Below the pieces are notes generated by a model that searched no databases, was not told the origin of the DNA, and was given only the letters and a program-made list of their open reading frames with translations. From Oligoflexales bacterium (GTDB lineage: Bacteria > Bdellovibrionota_B > Oligoflexia > Oligoflexales > JALZUQ01): a stretch of DNA of 35,453 bases. Both the position numbers and the translations under genes were made by a program. Location of the stretch: contig JALZUQ010000026.1 in the NCBI GenBank assembly GCA_023301465.1, forward strand, positions 1-35,453, in the 5' to 3' direction. This document shows positions 31,528-33,929 of the stretch, in pieces (positions within the stretch are counted from its first letter, which is position 1; each line of letters begins with the position of its first letter).

Positions 31528-32361
31528 ATGCCAGAACTACCAGAAGTTGAAGTCGTCAAGTTGGGCTTAGATAAAAAAATCCCCGGCAAAAAACTTCATT
31601 ACTCAAAGTTTTATAGAAAAGACCTACGCGATAAGATTCCTACTTTAAAAATAAACCGTTTATGCAAAGATCAGATTGTTCGCTCTGTAAGCAGACGAGG
31701 AAAGTACCTTATCTTGCATTTTGATGAGTCAGAGGTTCTTATTCATTTTGGCATGAGTGGAAAACTCATCACTTCAAAGTCCCAAGTGCCTAAAGCTCCA
31801 CACACCCACTGGGTATTCGGAGTTGGGACCTCAAAGAACACCACCTACTTTCATTTTATTTGCCCACGTCGTTTTGGCCGGATTGCACTTCATACAAACC
31901 TTAGTGCAATACACCCACTTTTAAAAAACCTAGGAACTGAGCCCCTGAGTCACCCAAAACTTGGGGATTATTTACACACGATGGCTTTAGGAAAGAAAAA
32001 ACCCATTAAGAACTTTGTAATGGATTCAAATATAGTTGTTGGTGTCGGAAATATCTATGCAAGTGAGTCCTTACACCAAACAGGAGTTCATCCTTGCACA
32101 CCAGCAGGTCAGGTAAGCCTAGACTTTTATAAGGCTCTTGCTAAAAACATCAAAACAACCTTAAAAAAAGCTATTCGTGCAGGCGGCACAACCCTCCAAG
32201 ATCACAGACAACTTAATGGGAATCCAGGATACTTTCGAGTAGAGCTTGCTGTATACGGCAGAGACTCTGAACCTTGCACAACCTGTAGCACCCCCATTGA
32301 GAACATTCGTATGGGAGGTAGAAGTAGTTACTTTTGCTCAGAATGTCAGCCTCTACCCTAG
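31528..32361 (+). CDS. mutM: Formamidopyrimidine-DNA glycosylase
   Basis: Base-excision repair enzyme that removes 8-oxoguanine and FaPy lesions and nicks the strand. It has the invariant start M-P-E-L-P-E-V-E, with Pro2 as nucleophile and Glu3 as catalytic acid, then H-F-G-M-S-G-K-L, P-R-R-F-G-R-I, the DNA-binding V-V-G-V-G-N-I-Y-A-S-E-S-L and G-G-T-T-L-Q-D-H, and a C-terminal zinc finger with Cys pairs C-T-T-C and C-S-E-C. The helix-two-turn-helix and Y-G-R-x-x-x-P-C context (here S-E-P-C) favour MutM over Nei. Length 277, normal. A weak AAGG site precedes the ATG by about 11 bases. Confidence 0.95.
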   Translation: MPELPEVEVVKLGLDKKIPGKKLHYSKFYRKDLRDKIPTLKINRLCKDQIVRSVSRRGKYLILHFDESEVLIHFGMSGKLITSKSQVPKAPHTHWVFGVGTSKNTTYFHFICPRRFGRIALHTNLSAIHPLLKNLGTEPLSHPKLGDYLHTMALGKKKPIKNFVMDSNIVVGVGNIYASESLHQTGVHPCTPAGQVSLDFYKALAKNIKTTLKKAIRAGGTTLQDHRQLNGNPGYFRVELAVYGRDSEPCTTCSTPIENIRMGGRSSYFCSECQPLP

Positions 32362-32397
32362 AAGATAAGCCATTTCGGTATACTTTAGGTTGAAAAC

Positions 32398-32416
32398 TGG
32401 TATGAAAATGTTACCA
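32398..32416. promoter_or_regulatory. Small palindrome upstream of the sigma-54-type promoter
   Basis: TGGTA (32398-32402) and TACCA (32412-32416) are inverted copies with a 9-base spacer, about 85 bases before the -12 element. That distance suits an enhancer-type activator site, but short arms like these arise often by chance. Confidence 0.25.
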
Positions 32417-32484
32417 TCTGAGAAGAAACAGCTTATATCGTTTTCTTATCCCCCTAAGATAGCTTAGTTTTATTTCTGTTATGC

Positions 32485-32502
32485 ATGGCATTTGAATTGC
32501 AA
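32485..32502 (+). promoter_or_regulatory. sigma-54 (RpoN) type promoter for the Fis-type HTH gene
   Basis: TGGCAT-TTGAA-TTGCA places GG at 32487-32488 and GC at 32499-32500 with exactly ten bases between, matching the -24/-12 consensus (TGGCAC-N5-TTGC) at all but one base. A start near 32512 would leave a 30-base leader containing the GGAGGAGG site. Confidence 0.7.
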
Positions 32503-32541
32503 TGTATTAAATAGGTAAGAGTAGAATTGGAGGAGGGAACC

Positions 32542-32769
32542 ATGTCTAATCTAGAACAACTAAACGGCGTTACTTTTGTACCGGGAATGTGTCTCAAAGA
32601 TGTTGAGCAAGAAGTGATTTTATCAACACTTCGCTACATGGGCTACAACCGCACAAGAACGGCAAAGATTCTTGGAATCGGAATTCGTACGCTTCAACGC
32701 AAACTAAAAAAATACCAATTAGAAGACCCAACAACTCAAACGAAACATAGCTTTCAAGTAGCTATGTAG
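32542..32769 (+). CDS. Stand-alone Fis/NtrC-type HTH DNA-binding protein
   Basis: A 75-residue protein that is little more than the HTH_8 domain found at the C-terminus of NtrC-type activators. Residues about 18-63 (M-C-L-K-D-V-E-Q-E-V-I-L-S-T-L ... N-R-T-R-T-A-K-I-L-G-I-G-I-R-T-L-Q-R-K-L-K-K-Y) fit that domain well, with the turn around L-G-I and the recognition helix R-T-L-Q-R-K-L. There is no AAA+ or receiver domain. The ATG is fixed by GGAGGAGGG just ahead; an upstream TTG in frame overlaps this site and is rejected. A sigma-54-type promoter lies upstream. Stand-alone versions can act as nucleoid-type regulators or as partners of full activators; which applies is unknown. The 3' end overlaps the convergent gene by 16 bases. 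Confidence 0.9.
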   Translation: MSNLEQLNGVTFVPGMCLKDVEQEVILSTLRYMGYNRTRTAKILGIGIRTLQRKLKKYQLEDPTTQTKHSFQVAM

Positions 32770-33062
32770 TGGGACCCAAAAAGTAATTCTTTTATTTTTT
32801 GGTAGTGCTCTAAGTTTGAAGAAATAAGCGTTAATCTTCCTTTTGAAGGAAAATCCGTTTCTTTTATTTTTGTTGCTAGGTTTTGAGTTTCAAGCAGAGA
32901 CGCTTGAGAGTCATCACTCATAAGAAGAGATACGTGACGGTATTTATGGAGTTGGTCTAAGACAAGGCCGGGGGAAGCTACTTTGATATCACAATCAAAC
33001 TGACTCCCATCTCCGACCCAGACGTCTATTTGAATATTTCCAATTCGACGAAGACCTAACAC
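32754..33062 (-). CDS. Small protein of unknown function after sucD
   Basis: A 102-residue ORF starting with GTG directly after the sucD stop (TAAGTG), so it would be translated by coupling with sucD; there is no separate ribosome site outside sucD. I recognise no family. The sequence looks protein-like: strands near the start (I-Q-I-D-V-W-V-G-D-G), then a helix (L-V-L-D-Q-L-H-K-Y), a strand (V-S-L-L-M-S-D-D), another helix and L-T-L-I-S-S-N, an alternating alpha/beta pattern. No signal peptide. Its end overlaps the convergent Fis-type gene by 16 bases. It could be spurious, but no other gene occupies the region. Confidence 0.55.
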   Translation of the reverse strand: MLGLRRIGNIQIDVWVGDGSQFDCDIKVASPGLVLDQLHKYRHVSLLMSDDSQASLLETQNLATKIKETDFPSKGRLTLISSNLEHYQKIKELLFGSHYIAT

Positions 33063-33929
33063 TTAGAGCATGCTTGCCATGGTTTCGCCGATTTTAGCTG
33101 GCGACTTTGACACCTTTGCACCAGCGGCTTCTAATGCTTCCATTTTTTCTGCCGCTGTTCCTTTTGCTCCAGAGATAATCGCACCGGCGTGACCCATGCG
33201 TTTTCCTTTTGGTGCAGTCTGTCCAGCAATAAAGGCTGCAACTGGTTTTTTGACTTCAGACTTGATGTACTCAGCAGCCTTGATCTCTGCATCGCCACCA
33301 ATTTCACCGATTAAGACAATACCTTCTGTCTCAGGATCTTTCTCAAAAAGCTCCAAAAGATCAATGTAGTTTGTACCAATAATCGGATCACCACCAATAC
33401 CCACACAAGTAGACTGACCCAAACCATTTGCAGTTGTTTGATGAACAGCTTCGTAAGTCAATGTCCCTGACTTTGAGATAATACCTATCTTACCCGGCTT
33501 ATGAATATAGCCTGGCATGATACCAATCTTACACTCTCCCGGAGTGATTACACCCGGACAGTTTGGACCTACAAGTCTTGAGTTTGATTGTTTTAGCTTT
33601 TTGTAGACTGGAATCATGTCCAAAACAGGGATGCCTTCAGTAATACAAACAATGAATTCAATTTCTGCATCAATCGCCTCTAAAATTGCATCAGCTGCAA
33701 ACGGAGGTGGAACAAAAATCATAGATGCATTTGCACCGGTTTTTTCTCTTGCTTCTTCTACCGTGTCAAAGACAGGCAAACCAATATGATCTTTGCCGCC
33801 TTTTCCCGGAGTAACTCCACCTACAAAACGAGGTGCATACTCATGAGATAACTTTGTATGGAACTCACCTGATTTACCAGTGATTCCCTGAGTGATAACT
33901 TTTGTATTTTTACCGATAAGAATCGACAT
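33063..33929 (-). CDS. sucD: Succinyl-CoA synthetase, alpha subunit
   Basis: CoA-binding, phosphohistidine-carrying subunit of the TCA-cycle enzyme that interconverts succinyl-CoA and succinate with nucleotide phosphorylation. Motifs: Q-G-I-T-G-K-S-G near the N-terminus (CoA binding), [33 protein letters not shown], and the phosphorylated His247 in G-H-A-G-A-I. The 288-residue length is normal. AAGGAG lies 6-8 bases before the ATG. It follows sucC by 32 bases on the same strand. Confidence 0.97.

Follow-up and report, generated by a model that had tools for sequence, protein, structure and literature searches.

Related systems

Transcription by the sigma-54 form of RNA polymerase needs AAA+ activators. 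Those of the NtrC family, such as FlbD, NtrC1 and NtrC4, have a C-terminal HTH_8 domain, with which the protein described here shares both its sequence family and its predicted fold. This 75-residue HTH protein, named SA in this report, is encoded at 32542–32769 of the window, that is, of the whole 35,453-nucleotide stretch of DNA that was analysed. Unlike the NtrC-family activators, SA has neither a receiver nor an AAA+ domain and is the product of a separate gene with a putative sigma-54 promoter of its own. Fis, like SA, is a small protein made of HTH_8 only and is found among the fold matches, but SA stays under the Fis family cut-off, and its match to the Fis model is confined to the C-terminal part of that model.

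The layout of the SA locus is also that of the MrpC/MrpB system of Myxococcus xanthus, where a regulator gene is preceded by two sites for an enhancer-binding protein and by a putative sigma-54 promoter (PMC10701913). MrpC represses its own gene by competing with the enhancer-binding protein MrpB at overlapping upstream sites, according to the same paper. MrpC is a CRP/Fnr protein, whereas SA carries an activator-type HTH, and a similar competition is possible for SA. DNA-bound proteins are able to hinder enhancer looping, as stated in PMC4740811. A connection of sigma-54 with how bacteria control their exterior has been drawn (Francke 2011, PMC3162934), and the candidate genes that carry the SA enhancer likewise code mostly for exported proteins.

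A literature search brought up no account of the 19-bp enhancer or of a regulon belonging to it for Oligoflexales and no published work on sigma-54 control or regulation in this order, and no stand-alone activator HTH appeared in the titles or abstract openings that it gave.

The SA gene and its product

The SA gene (32542..32769, forward strand) was characterized by family, translation and fold searches. Its start codon, the ATG at 32542, is directly preceded by GGAGG, and the ribosome-binding site GGAGGAGGG (32529..32537, forward strand) fits this ATG and not the TTG at 32527. The HTH_8 domain (PF02954; 32593..32715, forward strand) covers model positions 2–42 of 42 and scores 54.6 bits against a gathering cut-off of 22; SA consists of this domain and little else. 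The AAA+ domain with GAFTGA by which a bEBP is recognized is absent from the 75 residues, so that SA cannot remodel sigma-54. The description in the initial annotation of a protein made only of the DNA-binding domain of sigma-54 activators is thus confirmed. The top NCBIfam match is the end of FlbD, at 44 bits, far under the whole-protein cut-off.

An AlphaFold2 model based on a 20-sequence alignment has three helices (residues 18–32, 37–44 and 48–57) and a mean pLDDT of 75, and supersedes a single-sequence structure with a pLDDT of 52. The recognition stretch I46–K54 is invariant across the 20 aligned sequences. In the fold search the nearest solved structures were NtrC-type DNA-binding domains and Fis; there was no match at E ≤ 0.001, the best one, chain 4l5e of the NtrC1 DNA-binding domain, having an E of 0.014 and a probability of 1.00.

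The presence of E. coli Fis among these matches would suit a Fis-type nucleoid or architectural protein, as would a match to the Fis model itself. However, SA reaches only 36.3 of 99 bits, far under the Fis cut-off (NF001659). A second small HTH_8 protein, encoded at C55:15270, is the better Fis candidate of the genome, with 72 bits that likewise fall short of 99, and the HTH tree described below keeps SA apart from this C55 protein. A Fis-type role is quite unlikely.

Sigma-54 promoter and its conservation

The −24/−12 element TGGCATTTGAATTGCA (32486..32501, forward strand), identified by pattern match, scoring and conservation in orthologues, has the TGGC and TTGC blocks at GG-N10-GC spacing, and 42 nt separate its GC from the ATG. 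The sigma-54 promoter consensus is TGGCACG-N4-TTGCW, with which it agrees at 10 of 12 named positions. A sigma-54 promoter upstream of the HTH gene had been proposed in the initial annotation with 15 of 16 consensus-like positions; the promoter stands, while that count, which varies with the consensus used, was not reproduced. The pattern TGGCA-N6-TTGCW has 30 matches in the genome of the window, versus eight for the reversed control pattern. The proposal also depended on rpoN, which is present in one copy (PF00309, 65.7 bits).

Stand-alone SA was found in 27 genomes, that of the window included, among 56 searched, all of them within the 43 genomes of the order. Orthologues in named genomes belong to MAGs that bear the labels Oligoflexales, Oligoflexus, Oligoflexaceae, Pseudobacteriovorax and, once, Bdellovibrio sp., or less precise names, which places the origin of the window in the Oligoflexales or near them. 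A gene was counted among the 27 if it lay in a short frame and matched at E ≤ 2e-10; less significant matches to short frames of G003 and G011 were of the FlbD type or Fis-like (G011 C134) and were not counted.

A −24/−12 element lies upstream of SA in 20 of the 27 orthologues, as the initial annotation expected of a genuine promoter, and all seven without it belong to one family, f5. At a promoter score of at least 17.35 within 130 bp, the element is detected in 19/20 orthologues outside f5 and in 0/7 in f5; in the twentieth, that of G001, the element begins too far out, at 122 nt, and is cut by the 130-bp limit. The same score was reached by 5 of 381 other ORF upstream regions and by 65 of 5400 first-order Markov resamples. 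Among the 41 genomes of the order that were searched for it, 39 have rpoN; within f5 the figure is six of seven. Control of SA by sigma-54 through a −24/−12 promoter is thereby supported at the level of sequence.

The family f5 keeps SA with the same recognition helix, while the enhancer and the −24/−12 element are absent at the gene. In their place, the f5 loci (L033–L036, L046–L048) have a conserved TTGACAT...GCTAATTTGTCGCAGCTAAGG block upstream of SA, in which TTGACAT and TAATTT blocks are seen by eye. It is probably a sigma-70 promoter of SA.

The domain of SA equals an activator C-terminus, as it would in a decaying fragment of an activator whose promoter is a relic. This origin has a negligible probability, given the occurrence of SA in 27 genomes, its invariant recognition stretch and the conservation of its start, promoter and enhancer.

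Upstream enhancer

The palindrome TGGTATGAAAATGTTACCA (32398..32416, no strand assigned), a putative upstream activating sequence, is an exact match to TGGTA-N9-TACCA and was scored with a leave-one-family-out PWM. It belongs to a 19-bp site family, YGGTATNNNTTTGNTACCR, which is often doubled. A second, degenerate copy, CGGTATACTTTAGGTTGAA (32376..32394, forward strand), is located 22 bp upstream of it, with 11 matching positions and a PWM score of 14.4 from a matrix that itself includes CGGTATACTTTAGGTTGAA. Exact matches to TGGTA-N9-TACCA number four in the 2.77-Mb genome, TGGTATGAAAATGTTACCA being one of them. The palindromes at C58:452 and C7:59695 were put down to chance, as they have no −24/−12 element in range or lie inside a gene.

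With PWMs from which the family being tested had been left out, SA has an enhancer score of at least 14 in 18 of the 19 testable orthologues outside f5, the single miss being G009 (8.0), and in 0/7 in f5; G040, where the contig ends 63 nt upstream, was left out. The share of 250-bp background stretches reaching each enhancer score was 0.003–0.009, in a background that includes true sites. The enhancer PWM, the cut-off of 13.5 and the signal rule used below were set after the data had been seen.

Two enhancer sites are present in nine genomes, spaced by 21–22 bp (G000, G001, G018) or by 32–34 bp (G008, G042, G035, G020, G038, G041). Such spacings would set the sites two or three turns of the helix apart, which would suit the paired sites of an activator. 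The nearer copy ends about 53–108 bp upstream of the −24 element. The site is thus palindromic, conserved, within looping distance and recurrent at other putative sigma-54 promoters, as an enhancer should be, and the palindrome that had been noticed at enhancer distance proves to be a conserved 19-bp site.

Candidate regulon

One other combination of the palindrome with a perfect −24/−12 element exists in the genome of the window, at C5:17576-17689, before a 283-residue open frame with a lipoprotein-like start; its lipobox was read by eye, and the signal rule scored it negative. When the 43 genomes were searched by patterns and matrix, further genes behind an enhancer and a −24/−12 element were found as candidates in nine other genomes, namely G001 (three), G002, G004, G007 (two, divergent), G008 (two, one without an ORF), G009 (two), G014, G020 and G034, with G013 doubtful. 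The recurrence of the palindrome upstream of other −24/−12 promoters, suggested as a check in the initial annotation, is therefore found. The pattern searches also gave many matches of low enhancer score, which were taken as chance, and the reversed-pattern controls match too.

Judged by a crude rule, 10 of the 15 ORFs following enhancer promoters start with a signal-like N-terminus, versus 57 of 309 background ORFs (p 1e-4); the G008 promoter on C7, which has no ORF, was left out of this count. The enhancer together with the −24/−12 element thus marks a small putative sigma-54 regulon, composed mostly of genes for exported proteins.

Of the 20 genomes whose SA is sigma-54-driven, nine have an enhancer promoter at some gene besides SA; among the genomes lacking SA such promoters occur in 2 of 16 (p 0.04), and in f5 in 0/7. 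G013 and G034, in which SA was not detected, still have an enhancer-like site with a −24/−12 element, the one in G013 possibly being coding. The association of the enhancer with SA agrees with the negative feedback proposed in the initial annotation, in which SA binds the palindrome of the activator itself and shuts off its own promoter and the regulon. The activator kind of the SA domain, the MrpC/MrpB precedent and the motor-dead and motor-less FlbD-like proteins that also stand behind −24/−12 elements (see below) point the same way. On the other hand, the seven f5 genomes keep SA and its helix without an enhancer at the gene; therefore competition at its own enhancer cannot be the only job of SA there.

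Resident activators

In the genome of the window (96% complete), nine proteins match PF00158 at E < 1e-20 and a GAFTGA-type loop is present in eight of the nine, so the NtrC-type activators that the initial annotation called for are present. All nine also carry an HTH_8 of their own. This disagrees with SA being the DNA-binding half of a split activator that tethers an AAA+ protein in trans, an arrangement that is very unlikely here, although activators lacking the HTH exist elsewhere (CtcC, FlgR and FleT; PMC3162934).

Comparison of the 16-residue recognition stretch of SA with these nine AAA+ proteins gave 5–10 matching positions, the closest helix (10/16) being that of a receiver-type activator on C19. 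The helix of SA thus differs from those of all resident activators, and shared sites are therefore not expected from the sequence. This and the f5 genomes speak against negative feedback at the activator's own palindrome, which is considered rather less likely than not.

Activators were listed in four genomes in which the enhancer is present (G000, G001, G002, G008) and three in which both SA and the enhancer are absent (G003, G010, G015). C35b, a receiver-type activator (C35:59671-61094; PF00072, PF00158, PF02954), has orthologues 53–62% identical to that of the window's genome, and occurs in 4/4 enhancer-positive and 0/3 negative genomes. It is the only activator so distributed, and two other activator families occur in all seven genomes. 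The distribution is suggestive of C35b as the best candidate activator of the SA enhancer, with a p of 0.029 that is uncorrected and comes from seven genomes and about eight candidate families.

No copy of the enhancer was found at the C35b gene in the window's genome, G001 or G002. In G008:C7 (L225), an enhancer-like TGGTTGACATTTGATACCA (18.8) lies over a TTGACA box, about 70–90 nt upstream of the C35b orthologue, and could possibly serve in autorepression of this gene. It is the sole strong enhancer match at an activator start; it is absent from the other three orthologues and was therefore not used as proof, and assignment of the activator by adjacency was abandoned. The FlbD-like protein was rejected as the enhancer binder in the family of the window, since it lacks GAFTGA. 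An NtrX-like response regulator without the GAFTGA loop was also seen in G001:C29 (L230).

Origin and neighbourhood

In a tree of HTH domains, 26 of the 27 from SA fall together (SH-aLRT 87, on few columns). FlbD-like proteins (93) are close to this group, as are full activators from other phyla, and the other resident activators lie apart. The tree took 8 of the 13 loci that were read from outside the order; L189 (a close copy), L190, L193, L197 and L198 (short or cut) were left out, as were the activators L233 and L241. In long frames outside the order, the stretch IGIRTLQRK is found within full activators (Poribacteria, Desulfosarcina, Acidobacteria).

Upstream of SA, mutM/fpg (31528..32361, forward strand; NF002211, TIGR00577) is kept in 16 of 21 loci compared. 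Downstream, the gene at 33063..33929 (reverse strand), which we take from its sequence to be sucD-like, is present in 7 of 21; sucC/sucD are on this other side of SA in 7–8 of 21. A 102-residue ORF at 32754–33062 (reverse strand) has no Pfam match; its start (MLGLRR) and its place are common to a macro-domain protein of G008 (PF01661, L080), and a shorter counterpart is seen in G041 (L086). SA and its enhancer are inverted together, as one unit, in G020 with respect to the genes around them.

In 12 of 21 loci a flagellin-like ORF adjoins SA, between SA and mutM; its identity was confirmed by family (PF00669/PF00700) at one locus, L080. The enhancer is situated 34–147 nt past the flagellin stop in 11 loci. 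This proximity, the top NCBIfam match to FlbD and the place of SA beside FlbD-like domains in the tree would agree with SA acting mainly on flagellar genes, where it would tune FlbD-like activation. Against this, no copy of the enhancer precedes flagellin at the loci compared, and the FlbD-like protein of the window's family is without GAFTGA. In the genome of the window, moreover, no flagellin (PF00669) match was found, yet SA is still there with its enhancer and promoter; the gene thus appears to have persisted after the flagellum was lost. A mainly flagellar role is considered unlikely.

Motor-less FlbD-like proteins

FlbD-like proteins of about 330–360 residues with a degenerate AAA+ domain lacking GAFTGA are encoded in the window's genome (L057, 9321–10555 on C1; 360 residues) and in G001:C66 (L211). 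Having lost GAFTGA, the former should not activate sigma-54. A perfect −24/−12 element precedes the FlbD-like gene in both of these genomes, which form the family of the window.

In family f3 the FlbD-like gene is reduced to the HTH, with products of 96 residues in G003 (L290, 1814–2101, reverse strand) and 94 in G011 (L291, 121–402, reverse strand), each behind a perfect −24/−12 element and matching the FlbD C-terminus at 61–65 bits. They share 31 of 47 HTH residues with the FlbD-like protein of the window's genome, versus 17–18 with SA. The G003 gene is convergent to fabI, like the motor-dead FlbD-like gene of the window's genome. By these sequence comparisons, an FlbD-like activator became HTH-only behind a putative −24/−12 element in f3, separately from SA.

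A good −24/−12 element was found upstream of four of the eight FlbD-like genes without GAFTGA versus none of the 15 with it (p 0.008 for the 23 genes, relatedness uncorrected; a single event may underlie f1 and f3). A −24/−12 match at 212 nt before the FlbD-like gene of G002, apparently inside an upstream ORF, was not counted. The SA enhancer was not found at the GAFTGA-less FlbD-like genes with a −24/−12 element. Motor-less, sigma-54-driven activator domains would thus be a recurrent design in the order.

Proposed role of SA

The model favoured here builds on the conservation of the gene, its promoter and its enhancer, the reuse of the enhancer, and the presence of rpoN and activators. An NtrC-type activator, for which C35b is the best candidate, would bind the 19-bp site or pair, loop, and open the complex of RNA polymerase and sigma-54 at the SA promoter, and would also turn on the few other genes of the regulon, most of which code for exported proteins. 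SA, the HTH-only DNA-binding product of its own putative sigma-54 transcription unit, is expected to be a dimer. It would occupy activator-type sites, whereby activator-dependent transcription would most likely be limited or redirected. As a whole, the picture of SA as a DNA-binding regulator of the second tier, switched on along with the enhancer regulon and limiting or redirecting activator-dependent transcription, is judged reasonably probable.

A broader and rather doubtful proposal is that the Oligoflexales have repeatedly turned sigma-54 activators into motor-less or motor-dead, sigma-54-driven brakes that end the response at activator sites, SA being the oldest of them and one that has outlived the flagellum.

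The findings suggest a small feedback or relay circuit around SA. For a little-studied group they define an enhancer motif, name a candidate activator and list a few candidate target genes, and a conserved activator DNA-binding domain that stands alone under putative sigma-54 control would offer a simple test of a feedback-brake role.
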